DNA of 48,670 nucleotides, taken from Anaerobranca gottschalkii DSM 13577. GTDB taxonomy: Bacteria > Bacillota > Proteinivoracia > Proteinivoracales > Proteinivoracaceae. The translations under genes were made by a program, and so were the position numbers. The stretch is from positions 1 to 48,670 of the forward strand of contig NZ_FOIF01000010.1 of NCBI RefSeq assembly GCF_900111575.1. Reading direction: 5' to 3'. Each line of letters opens with the position of its first letter. The stretch's first letter is position 1. The notes under the pieces are model-generated. The model saw nothing but the letters and a program-made list of their open reading frames with translations, was not told the origin of the DNA and did not search any database. Below are positions 14,081-20,483 of the stretch, one piece after another.

Positions 14081-14145
14081 ACACTCCTAAGCTCCTTAAT
14101 GTATAATTGAATTTCTAAAAGAGTTTTGGGAGGTTGAAAATAATT

Positions 14146-15258
14146 ATGTTTATAACTAGGGGCAATTATAATGGGGATACAATAGTCAAATATCAACTAT
14201 TAGAATTATATCAACCTTTATTGGGCTATGAGGCTATAGCCCTTTGGATATATTTAAAACATTGTATTAACAATAATTTAAACATGTCCTTTAAGGAAAT
14301 TTATCAAAAATTACAAATGTCTGAGACAACTGGGACCATAGCCTTTAAGCTACTACTTAAATATCAGTTAATAAAACAAGAAAAGGATAAACTGGTTTTG
14401 TTAGAGCCCATGTCTTCAAACCAGTTTATTAAGTTTGTAAAAGATAATGAAAATATTGATATCGAAACGAAAAAAAGATTTTTTACTTTAGTAGAAAGTT
14501 ATCTTGAACCGAAAGAAGAAGTTCTATTAGGTAATGAAGAAACTCCTTTTATCGAAAATAGTGATGAAATTACAGTAATTCAGCGTGAAGATGAGTTAGT
14601 AGCTCGCTTTATTAAAGAATGTAAATTTCATCCCACTAAACAATTGAGACAACTATTTGATGATTGGTTTTATCATATAAAAGATTTTAGGCTTTTAGAG
14701 GAATTATTAATTAGAACGAAAAATAAAATTGAAACTGATGGAATCAAGGGTTGTCCTAGTAAATATGCCGATAAAATTGTTAAAGAATGGCTATTGATGG
14801 GAATTAAAACTTATGAAGATTTAAATAAAAAAGATCAAGCATTTAAACAAAATTGGGAAGTTTATCGTATGGTAGAAAAGGAGTTAAATAAAGGGTATGA
14901 TACTTTAACTCCTGAAGAAAAGAATATGATAAATCTTTGGTTAAAAGGTGATAAATCCTTAGAAGCCTTAAGTCCTACATTGATCCAAGAAACGATAAAA
15001 CTGATAATAAGACATGGATTTTATAAGGGTAAAGGTTCTCCCACTGTTGCCTTTGTTAATAAAATAATCAATAAATTACAAAGGGCTAAGGTCAAATCAT
15101 TACAGGAAGTGGAACAGTATCTTTTACCAAAAAGTAATAATAAAGAACCCTTAGAAAAGAAAAATTTCACCCACGAACACAGCAAATCTGACTTAGAAGA
15201 AGCTATTAGAAAAAAAACACTATTATCTTATGGCCTCAATGGGGAGGGAAATAATTGA
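14146..15258 (+). CDS. Replication initiation protein of the DnaB/DnaD family (helicase-loading)
   Basis: This protein of about 370 residues is related to Firmicute DnaB/DnaD initiation proteins. The N-terminal part (YQLLELYQPLLGYEAIALW) fits a winged-helix domain. A C-terminal DnaB_2-type domain includes FHPTKQLRQLFDDWF and KYADKIVKEWLLMGIKTYEDL. In Bacillus these proteins remodel origin DNA and bring the helicase-loader complex to the membrane. The open frame begins at a TTG that abuts the gggagg site, so the ATG at 14146, twelve bases after it, is the better start. It is the first gene of a three-gene replication operon, and its stop overlaps the next start (TGATG). Confidence 0.85.
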   Translation: MFITRGNYNGDTIVKYQLLELYQPLLGYEAIALWIYLKHCINNNLNMSFKEIYQKLQMSETTGTIAFKLLLKYQLIKQEKDKLVLLEPMSSNQFIKFVKDNENIDIETKKRFFTLVESYLEPKEEVLLGNEETPFIENSDEITVIQREDELVARFIKECKFHPTKQLRQLFDDWFYHIKDFRLLEELLIRTKNKIETDGIKGCPSKYADKIVKEWLLMGIKTYEDLNKKDQAFKQNWEVYRMVEKELNKGYDTLTPEEKNMINLWLKGDKSLEALSPTLIQETIKLIIRHGFYKGKGSPTVAFVNKIINKLQRAKVKSLQEVEQYLLPKSNNKEPLEKKNFTHEHSKSDLEEAIRKKTLLSYGLNGEGNN

Positions 15259-16256
15259 TGGAAGAATTGTATAATAAAATGTTAGATAGTGATAATTTTT
15301 TAATCAGACAAAAAATTGTAGCAAGCCATCAGAAAAATATTGAAAAACTTTATCAACAATTTCCTGACCTGAAAAAATTAGATACAGATATTGCTAATCT
15401 TCAAAAAGAGTATGCCATAGAATTAGCAAAAAAAATTAAGGGAGAACAATCCAAAGACCTTAAAACTCTACAGGAAAGATTAGATATCTTAGTTAGTCAA
15501 AAAAATCAATTCTTAAAAAACAATAATATTCCAGTTAACTATAAAGAACCCCAGTGGAAGTGCGGAAAGTGTCAAGATAGGGGAAAAATCTATACTTCTT
15601 TAGGAGTAAAGCCATGTGATTGTCAAGTTGATGATTCTTTGGTTTTCAAAAAAAGAAGGGCAGGTCTTACCCCGAAAATCCAAAACTCCACCTTTGAAAA
15701 CACTAATTTTTTAAAATACTTACCAAATGATAGGAAAAATGCAGAAACTGTATATAAGGTAATTCAAAACTACTTAAATAAATTAGTTACTTATATTAAA
15801 AAAGGACAAGCCTTTCAAGAAGGAATTTTTATCCATGGCCAAACGGGATCAGGTAAAACCCATCTTTTAGGTTGTATAGCAAATTTTCTTATAGAACAGC
15901 AAATTGATGTTCTTTATGTGGTATATGCTGACCTCCTAGACAAAATTAGAGAAACATACAATGAAGAAGCTACAGAAACAGAGAGTGCCATATTGCGTAG
16001 GGTTACCTCAGTTTCTGTATTACTCATTGATGATTTAGGGATGGAAAAAAATTCTGAATTTGCCCAAAAGTATTTAGCCCAAATAATTGATCATCGTTAC
16101 CGCAATATGTTACCAACAATTATAACTTCAAATTTCACCTTAACTGAGTTAAAAGAAAGAAGTAAAAATGATATGTATGGTGAAAGGGTAATTTGGCGGT
16201 TAGTGGAAATCAGTCATTTATTCCAGTTAACTGGAAACTTACGGAACACACTTTAA
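15258..16256 (+). CDS. DnaI/DnaC-type AAA+ helicase loader
   Basis: This 332-residue protein has a helical N-terminal half with a zinc-binding site (Cys102, 105, 120 and 122 in KCGKC and PCDCQ) and a C-terminal AAA+ ATPase: Walker A GQTGSGKT (194-201), Walker B SVLLIDDLG, and sensor-like TIITSNF. This is the layout of Bacillus DnaI, which loads the replicative helicase onto DNA. The start overlaps the stop of the preceding gene and the stop is 18 bases before the primase-helicase gene, so all three are co-transcribed. A phage-type loader is possible, but the neighbours are chromosomal. Confidence 0.9.
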   Translation: MEELYNKMLDSDNFLIRQKIVASHQKNIEKLYQQFPDLKKLDTDIANLQKEYAIELAKKIKGEQSKDLKTLQERLDILVSQKNQFLKNNNIPVNYKEPQWKCGKCQDRGKIYTSLGVKPCDCQVDDSLVFKKRRAGLTPKIQNSTFENTNFLKYLPNDRKNAETVYKVIQNYLNKLVTYIKKGQAFQEGIFIHGQTGSGKTHLLGCIANFLIEQQIDVLYVVYADLLDKIRETYNEEATETESAILRRVTSVSVLLIDDLGMEKNSEFAQKYLAQIIDHRYRNMLPTIITSNFTLTELKERSKNDMYGERVIWRLVEISHLFQLTGNLRNTL

Positions 16257-16274
16257 TGGGGAGGAGGGTAAAAC

Positions 16275-18821
16275 TTGAATTATGAAGCTATTTTAAATGA
16301 AATAAAGGATAAAATAGATATTGTAGATTACATTGGACAGTTTACAGAGCTAAAGAAAAGGGGAAACCTTTATCAAGGAAAGTGTGTTCTTCACAATGAC
16401 AAAGATACCCCCTCACTAACGGTTTATGATGAAACCCAAAGTTTTTATTGTTTTGGTTGTAAAGCTGGTGGAGGAGTTTTAGACTTTGTAAAGGAATATT
16501 ATAATTTTGATTTCAATGAAGCATTAGAATTCTTGGCGGAAAAAGCAGGGATTCAATTATCCCATATTGATTTATCAGTATATCGTAAAAAAAAGGCGAG
16601 GGTTCAACAAAATCAAGTACAACTAGAAGCTTCTAAAGAAGTTATGATCAAAACGGCAAATGTGGGTAAAGAGTACCTGAAAAGTAGGGGTATTACAGAA
16701 CAAACGGTAAATGATTTTGAATTAGGATATGATGATAAAAACAATTCTATAGTAATTCCCATCCACGACGGTATGGGTAAAGTAGTGGGGTTTAGTAATC
16801 GGTTTTTAGATGAAGGGGTAGAACCTAAATATAAAAACTCTAGGAATGATGAAGTTTTCAACAAAGGGGAACTTTTATATAATCTCCATAGAGGTAGAAA
16901 ACACCTAACCGATACCCTTTACGTAGTAGAAGGTTATTTCGATGTCATGAGTTTGTGGCAAAGTGGTTTTTTAAGTTCAGTAGGGATAATGAAGGATGTC
17001 CTTACAGAACAGCAAGGGAAAATAATTGCTAAGCTATGTAAAGGTAAACAATATAAAGCTGGAAAAACCATTATTTTAATTCCCGATAATGATTCTACTG
17101 GTATAAAAAGTGTTGAAAAAAATAAAAAAATATTATTAGATGAGGAACCTACTTTAGACATTCGGGTAGCCATACCAGAACATCCCTATAAAGATGTCAA
17201 TGATATCTTAAAGGCTGAGGGAGAAGAGGGAGTTCAAAGGCTTTTAGAAAAGACCGTCTACGCCGATTACTTTATTTTAAAACATCTACTAAATGAGCAG
17301 AAAACCGTTGAAAAGGAATATTTAGTTGCTAAAGAATATATCACTCAAAATGTCTATAATGAAATGGTAGCAGAAGATTTAATTAAGTATCTGGCGGAGC
17401 GTTGGTCAAAAACAGTTTTACAGGTTAGAGAATATTTAGAAATCACAAAGGGAAAAACTAAAGGTAAAATGCCCCACAATACCTTTGTTGAGAAACAAGT
17501 GTTGGGAATACTATTGGAACACCCAGGAAAAATTGATGAAGTTGCCGATGTTTTAATTCCCGACCTCTTTTATAATAATCAAAATAGATATATCTACGAA
17601 ATTATTCTCAATCAATATCAAAAAACAGGGGAAGTATCACAACTACATTTATATTTAGAACTGCAAAAAAGAGAAGCTGTAGATAATATTCAAAACTTAT
17701 TTACCGAACTAACTTCAAATGCTCCACCACCTTCAGAACTCCATAAAGGAGTAGGAATTCTAAAAGATTTATACCTAAAGCGTAAGCTTTATAAAGCTGT
17801 AGAACAAATCGGAGATTTAGTTACTGAAAATGAAGAGGCATCTGTAGATAGTATTGCTTCTCAAGCTCAAGAACTAATTTTCCAAGCCACTGATATCAAT
17901 ACAAATCAAAAAACTATCTATGATATTAATGAACTACTTGCAAATAGGTTAGAAGAATATGTTAAGCGAAAGGAAGGATTAACTCCTAGGGGACTTCAGA
18001 CAGGGTTTATGTCCCTAGATAGCTTAACAAATGGTTTTAAAAATAAACACTTAATAATTTTAGCTGCTGCTACTTCTACCGGTAAAACTGCCTTTAGTTT
18101 AAATATTGTAAGGAATGTAATTAAGAGAAAACTCCCTGTAGCTTTTATCAGTCTTGAGATGAGTGCAGAAGAAATTATGGATAGATTGATAATCCAAGAG
18201 TTAATGATCGATAACCAAAGGTATGAACGGGGAGAATTAGGTGATAAAGAATTTACAGAATTTGTTCAAAACCTTAACCTTTTATATAACTTGCCATTAA
18301 GAATCAGTGATGAAAGGGGTATAAATGTTTCCCAAATAAGGGCTAGATTAAGGAGAATGAAGGCCCAAATGGGAGGATTAGGCTTAGTTGTTATCGATTA
18401 TCTTCAAACTATAGCCATCCCCGAAAATGCTGCTAACCAAACTACCGCTAGGGCAGTAGGTGAAATAGTCCTTCAGTTGAGGAATTTAGCTGCTGAACTA
18501 GATACTCCAATCATCCTGCTTTCTCAGATAAACCGTAGTTATTCCCAAAGACAAGATAAAAGACCTCAAGTTTCAGACCTTAGGGAATCTGGAAATATTG
18601 AGGAATTTGCCGATATGATAATTTTCCTATATCGCCATGCCCGAACTAGTCTTCAGGCCTTTGAAGAAGCAAAGGCTGAAGGAAGGGAAAATGAAGTAGA
18701 AATTATCGTAGCTAAAAACAGGACTGGTAAGACTGGAACTACTACTTTGATCTTTGATGACAGATATTTACGCTATATTGATCCTTTAGGAGAATCTTTA
18801 GAAAAAAGTGCTCCTAGGTAG
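16275..18821 (+). CDS. Fused DnaG-type primase and DnaB-type replicative helicase
   Basis: This 848-residue protein begins at a TTG behind ggaggaggg. Residues 1-100 are a CHC2 zinc finger (Cys37, His40, Cys59, Cys62). Residues 130-330 are the DnaG catalytic core: EPKYKNSRNDEVFNKG, TOPRIM Glu219 in VVEGYFDV, Asp271/Asp273 in IPDNDSTG, and DVNDIL at 307-312. Residues 330-395 resemble a short DnaG-like linker. Residues 402-500 match the DnaB N-terminal domain (EKQVLGILLEHP). Residues 570-840 are the RecA-type motor: Walker A with Lys604, catalytic Glu628 (FISLEMS), Walker B IDYLQ, RESGNIEEFAD, and the arginine-finger region KNRTGKTG. Every active-site motif is intact. It should prime and unwind at replication forks. 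In most bacteria these are two genes. Confidence 0.93.
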   Translation: MNYEAILNEIKDKIDIVDYIGQFTELKKRGNLYQGKCVLHNDKDTPSLTVYDETQSFYCFGCKAGGGVLDFVKEYYNFDFNEALEFLAEKAGIQLSHIDLSVYRKKKARVQQNQVQLEASKEVMIKTANVGKEYLKSRGITEQTVNDFELGYDDKNNSIVIPIHDGMGKVVGFSNRFLDEGVEPKYKNSRNDEVFNKGELLYNLHRGRKHLTDTLYVVEGYFDVMSLWQSGFLSSVGIMKDVLTEQQGKIIAKLCKGKQYKAGKTIILIPDNDSTGIKSVEKNKKILLDEEPTLDIRVAIPEHPYKDVNDILKAEGEEGVQRLLEKTVYADYFILKHLLNEQKTVEKEYLVAKEYITQNVYNEMVAEDLIKYLAERWSKTVLQVREYLEITKGKTKGKMPHNTFVEKQVLGILLEHPGKIDEVADVLIPDLFYNNQNRYIYEIILNQYQKTGEVSQLHLYLELQKREAVDNIQNLFTELTSNAPPPSELHKGVGILKDLYLKRKLYKAVEQIGDLVTENEEASVDSIASQAQELIFQATDINTNQKTIYDINELLANRLEEYVKRKEGLTPRGLQTGFMSLDSLTNGFKNKHLIILAAATSTGKTAFSLNIVRNVIKRKLPVAFISLEMSAEEIMDRLIIQELMIDNQRYERGELGDKEFTEFVQNLNLLYNLPLRISDERGINVSQIRARLRRMKAQMGGLGLVVIDYLQTIAIPENAANQTTARAVGEIVLQLRNLAAELDTPIILLSQINRSYSQRQDKRPQVSDLRESGNIEEFADMIIFLYRHARTSLQAFEEAKAEGRENEVEIIVAKNRTGKTGTTTLIFDDRYLRYIDPLGESLEKSAPR

Positions 18822-19127: not shown

Positions 19128-20483
19128 ATGGCATTAGAAAAACAAGCATGGGAGAAAATATTACGCTATTTAAGGATAAGGGATAAAGAACGAACGGATC
19201 TACTAGACGATCTACTACCCCAAGATTTAGCAGAACAAATTTATAGTTTACCAAATCAAGAGAAAATAGAGATATTTGGTTTATTGAACAATGAAGAAGC
19301 AGCAATAATTTTAGGTGAAATGGAACTAGAACAACAAGCAAAAATAATTTCTCTGTTATCACCTAAAATTGCAGCAGATATTTTATCTGAAATGCCTTAC
19401 GATGATATGACTGACCTTTTAGGTGAACTAAAAGAAGATCTGAAAAACAAAATTTTAGGCTACATGCAAAGTGATGATGCTGAAGAAGTAAGGGAACTGC
19501 TAGAATATCCAAAGGACTCTGCTGGTGGTATTATGACCACAGAGTTTATCGCCTTCAAAGAAACTTTAACTGTAAGAGAAGCTATTAAAGGATTAAGGGA
19601 ACTAGCACCTTCGGCAGAAACAGCCTATTATATCTATGTCATTGACGAAGATGAAAGGTTAGTGGGGGTTGTTTCATTAAGGGAGTTAATTATCGCCGAT
19701 GAAAACGAGATTTTAAGGGAAATAATGAGAACCAATGTTGTAAGTGTAGAAGCAGAAACTGACCAAGAGCAGGTTGCTCAAATGGTACAAAAATACAACT
19801 TCCTAGCAATTCCCGTTACTGATAAAGATAATAAACTACTAGGTATAATTACTGTAGATGATATCATGGACGTTATAGAAGAAGAAACAACTGAGGATAT
19901 CTACCACTTAGTAGGTACTTCAGAAGTAGAAGGAACTACCTTAGTTGAAGCAAGACCTTTCTCCATTGCAAGAACCCGTTTACCTTGGTTAATTATATGT
20001 CTCTTAGGTGGATTGTTTTCAGGAAGTGTAATCTCCGTTTATGAAGAGACATTAGATGCCATCGTAACTTTGGCATTCTTTATCCCAGTTATTATGGATA
20101 TGGGTGGAAATGTTGGTTCCCAATCTTCCACAGTTTTTGTGAGGGGAGTAGCCACTGGCGAAATTCCACCAAATAAGATGTTTAAGTATTTCTTAAAAGA
20201 AATTAAAGTGGGCCTTATTATGGGGATAATCTGTGGTATAACCATTGCTTTGGCTGCATCTTTATGGCAAGGTATGCCTATCTTAGGCTTAGTGGTAGGG
20301 ATTTCTATGTTCTGTACAGTTACTTTGGCGGCAACTATCGGTACATTAATACCTCTAATCTTTACGAGATTCGGTATTGATCCTGCTGTTACAGCCGGTC
20401 CCTTTGTAACTACTATAAAAGATGTAACAGGGTTAATGATTTACTTCTATATCGCTACAGCTTTTATGGATTATTTAATGTAA
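19128..20483 (+). CDS. mgtE: Magnesium transporter MgtE
   Basis: This 451-residue protein has the full MgtE layout. A helical N-domain (about 10-130, with the MgtE_N pattern ending GYMQSDDAEEVRELLEYPKDSAGGIMTTEF) is followed by two CBS domains (about 140-255) and a C-terminal membrane domain of five helices from about 285, with VITGIK-like packing and the conserved MDMGGNVGSQSST segment lining the pore. It is a Mg2+-gated channel in the cytoplasmic membrane. Expression should be set by the M-box and terminator upstream. The ATG follows gaaaggggtg. A terminator follows the stop. Confidence 0.97.
   Translation: MALEKQAWEKILRYLRIRDKERTDLLDDLLPQDLAEQIYSLPNQEKIEIFGLLNNEEAAIILGEMELEQQAKIISLLSPKIAADILSEMPYDDMTDLLGELKEDLKNKILGYMQSDDAEEVRELLEYPKDSAGGIMTTEFIAFKETLTVREAIKGLRELAPSAETAYYIYVIDEDERLVGVVSLRELIIADENEILREIMRTNVVSVEAETDQEQVAQMVQKYNFLAIPVTDKDNKLLGIITVDDIMDVIEEETTEDIYHLVGTSEVEGTTLVEARPFSIARTRLPWLIICLLGGLFSGSVISVYEETLDAIVTLAFFIPVIMDMGGNVGSQSSTVFVRGVATGEIPPNKMFKYFLKEIKVGLIMGIICGITIALAASLWQGMPILGLVVGISMFCTVTLAATIGTLIPLIFTRFGIDPAVTAGPFVTTIKDVTGLMIYFYIATAFMDYLM

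Follow-up and report, generated by a model that had tools for sequence, protein, structure and literature searches.

Bacteria are described as uniformly using DnaG (PMC5862659). In the usual system the collar formed by the N-terminal domains of DnaB recruits DnaG through the C-terminal domain of the primase, and a hexamer carries one to three primases (PMC13220808, PMC12418098); for B. stearothermophilus, one primase per ring has been reported (PMC12418098). Here we consider a gene of Anaerobranca gottschalkii DSM 13577 that joins a primase to a DnaB helicase in one polypeptide, and that lies within a stretch of 48,670 nucleotides (contig NZ_FOIF01000010.1, positions 1 to 48,670 of the forward strand; hereafter, the window). 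The question is whether this gene is an accessory of the genome or its only primase and replicative helicase and, in the latter case, from what sources it was assembled.

Domain architecture and the junction

The fusion gene occupies positions 16275..18821 of the forward strand and is a single open reading frame of 848 codons (848 aa) with a TTG start. A ribosome-binding site on the same strand, GGAGGAGGG (16260..16268), read directly from the sequence, lies 6 bases 5' of this start, and a G-rich Shine-Dalgarno sequence also stands ahead of the same start in relatives. The protein begins with a CHC2 zinc-binding domain (aa 4-96, 16284..16562; Zn_ribbon_DnaG, PF01807, E 1.2e-26), which in structure comparison matches the zinc domain of 1d0q with Z 15.6 and 41% identity. 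The primase catalytic, or RNA polymerase, domain with its C-terminal helical subdomain follows (aa 102-392, 16578..17450), as delimited by an AlphaFold model and structural alignment, and contains a TOPRIM core (aa 214-312, 16914..17210; Toprim_2, PF13155, E 1.3e-11) with E219, D271 and D273; the Pfam match to DNAG_N, at aa 157-206, covers profile positions 77-126 only. The helicase half, which aligns colinearly with Geobacillus DnaB 11-443, comprises a DnaB N-terminal domain (DnaB_N, aa 399-497, 17469..17765; PF00772, E 4e-15), whose helical hairpin extends past the Pfam match to about aa 539 in the full-length model, and a RecA-type motor (DnaB_C, aa 573-834, 17991..18776; PF03796, E 7.7e-82).

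Along with the TOPRIM residues, the zinc ligands (C37, H40, C59, C62) and K185 are present, as are the DnaB motifs GKT, SLEM, IDYLQ, SQINR and DLRESG, and nearly all of these are invariant in an alignment of 12 genomes. The sequence-only reading, that one 848-codon frame holds CHC2, TOPRIM and a complete DnaB with the catalytic residues of both halves, is therefore borne out by reading frame, Pfam and alignment; all catalytic domains of bacterial DnaG and DnaB are found here on one polypeptide. In the Walker A loop AAATSTGKT stands in place of ARPSMGKT, an alteration whose effect is not established, and the protein falls under the cut-offs of two curated models (TIGR00665, 353.8 versus 385; TIGR01391, 250.9 versus 283.6).

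What the polypeptide does not possess is the helicase-binding domain of DnaG. The same reading supposed that this C-terminal domain had shrunk to a linker at residues 330-395, which proved wrong: in the structural comparison, residues 104-392 match B. subtilis DnaG 112-435 (Z 28.4, rmsd 2.4, 275 residues), a stretch that spans the RNA-polymerase domain in full, its final helices as well, so that residues 330-392 are the last part of the catalytic domain. Modelled alone, the primase half reached pLDDT 89 in AlphaFold, and it matches DnaG more closely in structure (Z 24-28) than it does the T7 gp4 primase (Z ~17). Since the catalytic domain ends at about residue 392 and DnaB_N starts at about 399, no space is left for a helicase-binding domain of ~150 residues, and by Pfam and the models it is wholly absent. 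The junction itself, some eight residues (391-398) after which a full DnaB begins, is of very low model confidence, and the full-length model is middling (pLDDT 67) and does not fix the placement of the primase relative to the ring.

This poorly modelled junction is one reason to consider that the gene encodes a precursor, cleaved after translation or read again from an internal start, and that an ordinary separate primase and helicase result. T7 makes a short form of gp4, and the source gene has an ATG near codon 399, just before DnaB_N (KGK-M-PHN), with AAAGG ahead of it. This methionine, however, is found only in the two closest genomes, others having WFPHD, APHN or LPND, and no conserved internal start was seen in the 12-genome alignment; a primase freed in this way would, moreover, be without a helicase-binding domain. 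We judge such processing improbable and prefer to regard the fusion as a single-chain primase-helicase.

Class-wide conservation and the housekeeping loci

The class was sampled through 13 genomes of Proteinivoracia, the source included, which represent seven genera and four families and of which three are single-contig; the fusion was found in all 13. The remaining eleven copies in the 12-genome alignment share 49-95% identity with the window protein, and frames are ~844-860 aa long across the class, with the exception of an artefactually longer frame in one genome (G010). There a 1263-aa frame combining loader, primase and helicase was rejected, being bridged by N runs; at this locus (L102) the N runs give a false 1260-codon frame over dnaI and the fusion that could mislead automatic annotation. 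The source assembly is a draft of 110 contigs, which might favour explaining the fusion as an assembly join or frameshift, a possibility that the sequence-only reading had placed near codons 330-400. No such break exists: the frame continues through the junction in 12 full-length genomes, the three single-contig genomes among them agree, and an artefact of this kind is scarcely conceivable. Comparison of the true fusion with that of a congener (G001) gave dN 0.023 and dS 0.57 (dN/dS about 0.04); purifying selection acts on each half and at the junction, the linker being no less constrained than the halves.

Gene order in the class is deoC - amidase - DnaD/DnaB_2 - DnaI - fusion - (mgtE) - asnS, with small local changes. 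In the window the next upstream gene (15255..16256, forward strand) encodes a DnaI/DnaC-type AAA+ helicase loader, recognized by IstB/DnaI-like matches and as a PHROG DnaC-like loader, and is preceded by a gene for a DnaD/DnaB_2-type replication initiation protein (14134..15258, forward strand; PF07261, E 3e-11; PHROG DnaD-like); both hold the same position throughout the class. As these two genes stand immediately upstream on the same strand, we place the fusion gene in a replication-initiation operon, and this is without phage genes, as the absence of phage context noted earlier had indicated. On the other side of the fusion, an M-box magnesium riboswitch (RF00380, 18854-19030, forward strand, 153.6 bits) precedes the mgtE magnesium transporter gene (19128-20483), which is an ordinary arrangement.

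The source genome has a single CHC2 match, a single DnaG-like gene and a single strong DnaB_C match, the second DnaB_C match being weak and situated in a 478-aa frame of RadA size. In every one of the 13 class genomes the single CHC2 match lies in the same frame as the only strong DnaB_C match, and the remaining TOPRIM matches, in six class genomes, are in small frames of 189-256 aa. Searches for CHC2, DnaG-like and DnaB_C sequences, whose scope did not include AEP-type primases, found no separate dnaG or dnaB in these 13 genomes. The proviso that this be the cell's only primase or helicase is thus met so far as genome searches show, with one CHC2/DnaG-type primase and one true DnaB per genome. 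A separate DnaG of ~600 aa is present in other families of the phylum, and the genomes listed outside the class, which are only part of a sample of 398 phylum genomes, show an ordinary DnaG. Three genomes (G193, G283, G396; 99% completeness) had no CHC2 zinc-finger match at all, which may reflect loss or replacement of the gene or sequence missing from the data.

The chromosomal slots of the two genes could also be compared, the names of slot genes other than the searched markers being read from translations. In one relative (G027) the dnaG slot reads ppdK-dgt-dnaG-rpoD, and in G014, G019, G036 and G050 dnaG is ~2 kb ahead of rpoD. In three class genomes (G002, G004, G008) no dnaG precedes rpoD, the order being ppdK - (carboxypeptidase) - dgt - rpoD, with a small gene between dgt and rpoD in G002; in G000 and G005 dgt is also missing ahead of rpoD. 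The dnaB slot of G017, the nearest relative by RpoB, reads rpsF-ssb-...-rplI-dnaB-purA, and no dnaB lies between rplI and purA in G008, where the two adjoin directly, or in G000, G002 and G004, where two unrelated genes lie between them. Because the canonical slots are empty in the class and filled in relatives, gene order suggests that both housekeeping genes were most likely present ancestrally and then deleted.

These results bear on whether the fusion is an acquired accessory element alongside a normal dnaG and dnaB, which the sequence-only reading held would follow from finding the normal genes elsewhere and from a phage or plasmid placement in trees. The second part stands only to the extent that the primase half is of mobile-element type, resembling plasmid and phage proteins; the gene as a whole is a fixed, class-wide member of a syntenic chromosomal operon free of phage genes. 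The first part fails, given that no second copy occurs in the 13 genomes and that both canonical slots are empty. An accessory role thus has very little to commend it, and we favour the fusion as the sole pair.

Ancestry of the two halves

In phylogenetic trees the primase half falls outside 20 housekeeping DnaGs (support 100/100) and groups with Zn-TOPRIM-DnaB_C proteins of ~670 aa from plasmids and viral contigs, and its placement with the DnaG of G017 is rejected (p-AU 0.0003). It has PDND, in common with most mobile-element rows, where housekeeping DnaG has [FY]D[AG]D, and KDxND where housekeeping DnaG has DPDE. Between two reference points the fusions have 128-129 residues and the mobile elements 118-130, versus 162-177 in housekeeping DnaG; a deletion of ~45 residues is common to the primase half and mobile-element primase-helicases. 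Once long branches are removed the fusions nest among the mobile-element rows (95/81). A topology that sets the mobile-element primases apart as a group of their own could not be rejected (p-AU 0.75). By these comparisons the primase half resembles a mobile-element-type primase and not the lineage's own DnaG, and it is unsettled whether its place is within the mobile-element primases sampled.

The failure to reject that separate group, and the long stem branches in the trees, leave some room for the primase half to be the lineage's own DnaG after all, if fast evolution following the fusion pushed it out of the housekeeping clade. Yet PDND, KDxND and the ~45-residue deletion occur in most or all mobile-element primase-helicases, none of the three is present in the housekeeping DnaGs compared, and both the rejected grouping with G017 and the nesting obtained without long branches argue in the same direction. 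We regard a rapidly diverged native DnaG as unlikely, though not negligibly so, and retain a primase of mobile-element type.

In the RpoB tree the class adjoins G017 (99/98). Vertical inheritance of the DnaB half, as sister of G017, was rejected (p-AU 0.0015); the helicase half forms a clade (100/99) with six DnaBs that are encoded alone on the chromosomes of other Bacillota, their sources being three further families and the MAGs Bu80, CSSed10_292 and B1Sed10_159, and a GNIEEFAD motif is common to this clade and the fused helicase. It also fits a DnaB replicative helicase in having DnaB_N and DnaB_C, Walker A/B, SLEM, SQxNR and DLRESG, and in clustering with cellular DnaB. Judged by these phylogenies, the helicase half is of cell type but is not the DnaB of the nearest relative, and the two halves of the fusion have different ancestry.

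The divergent DnaBs nearest to the fused helicase (L105, L106 and L107, in G019, G027 and G036) stand immediately after a DnaB_2-type gene, and no gene for a DnaI-type loader separates the two. In G026 (L125) and G049 (L092, L126), which belong to families f18 and f41, searches turned up only highly divergent DnaB-like genes; these score 64-103 bits against the profile of the fused helicase, lie on a branch 3.2 long and are possibly another replicative-helicase replacement.

Relation to known enzymes and a proposed mechanism

The fusion fits housekeeping DnaG in its CHC2 and TOPRIM-containing RNA-polymerase domains and fails to do so in the helicase-binding domain, in clustering and in the DPDE and [FY]D[AG]D motifs; it fits the mobile-element type in its primase (truncated DNAG_N, PDND, KDxND) but not in its helicase, which is of cell type. 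Like T7 gp4 and mitochondrial and plant Twinkle, it is a single chain in which a zinc/TOPRIM primase precedes a RecA-type helicase of the hexameric kind, and it may be like T7 gp4 in bearing six primases per ring, which for the fusion is inferred only. T7 gp4 and Twinkle are without the DnaB N-domain collar, whereas the fusion has a cell-type DnaB with DnaB_N and its gene is the sole cellular pair. The closest primase type, by tree and motifs, is that of the mobile-element Zn-TOPRIM-DnaB_C proteins (Selenomonas plasmids pSRC3 and pSRC4; IMG/VR contigs L298-L316), which share the three primase features just named. Unlike the fusion, the pSRC3 and pSRC4 proteins have no DnaB_N match in Pfam; DnaB_C of their type reaches only ~40-70 bits against the fusion motor profile, and these are not chromosomal housekeeping genes. 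Zn-TOPRIM-DnaB_C primase-helicases of 631-677 aa also occur in four other Bacillota genomes (L391-L394, in G152, G210, G324 and G280), probably as integrated or plasmid elements.

The order CHC2-TOPRIM-DnaB_N-DnaB_C recurs in BpsS140_00057 of Bacillus phage vB_BpsS-140 (857 aa, annotated DnaG; L062:5989-8562), which differs in its ~25% identity and nearly complete DNAG_N. Because both its halves fall elsewhere in the trees, on long branches, it most likely arose by a separate fusion event. The IMG/VR contigs L150-L162, with matches to both halves, were rejected as having separate genes without fusion; among phage matches with at least 80% coverage besides H1, H2 proved on inspection to be two separate genes and the others carry two annotated genes. 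In the open-access papers searched we found nothing relevant on DnaG-DnaB fusions, dnaG loss or these organisms, and no account of a fusion that serves a bacterium as its only primase and replicative helicase, although a subscription paper could exist. Primase-helicase fusions as such are known from T7, Twinkle, plasmids and one Bacillus phage; what is new is cellular use and the combination of known parts.

Sequence establishes the architecture of the protein, with its motifs intact and no helicase-binding domain, its occurrence as the sole copy, its conservation throughout the class, the emptiness of both slots and the different ancestry of the halves; from these we infer the following course. 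In the class ancestor a mobile-element-type primase would have been fused in frame in front of a cell-type DnaB, at its N-terminus, beside DnaI and a DnaD-like initiator; replication of the chromosome would then have passed to the chimaera, with loss of the usual dnaG and dnaB. DnaI would load the hexamer, it and the DnaD/DnaB_2 protein still serving ring loading; the RecA ring would unwind DNA and the DnaB N-domains would make the collar, at which the covalent link would replace DnaG recruitment. Each subunit would bear its own primase, so that up to six would be permanently coupled to each ring, in the manner of T7 gp4. That the protein forms hexamers, makes primers and unwinds DNA is inferred, as are the 6:6 stoichiometry and the order of events, without biochemical or genetic data. 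We hold it to be very probable that the chimaera has taken the place of both housekeeping genes and serves chromosome replication as a single-chain primase-helicase like T7 gp4, its biochemistry being untested; that the whole class copies its chromosome in this way with no free primase, a fixed 6:6 ratio and a primase unable to cycle at the fork is likely, with somewhat less assurance.

Models of Okazaki-fragment timing depend on the primase coming and going. If the proposal is true, this freedom of the primase seems to have been lost in living cells with complete genomes, and the role of primase cycling would become directly testable. The displacement resembles that by T7-like enzymes in organelles, but here two core, essential genes would have been displaced, in free-living bacteria, by a chimaera derived in part from mobile elements.
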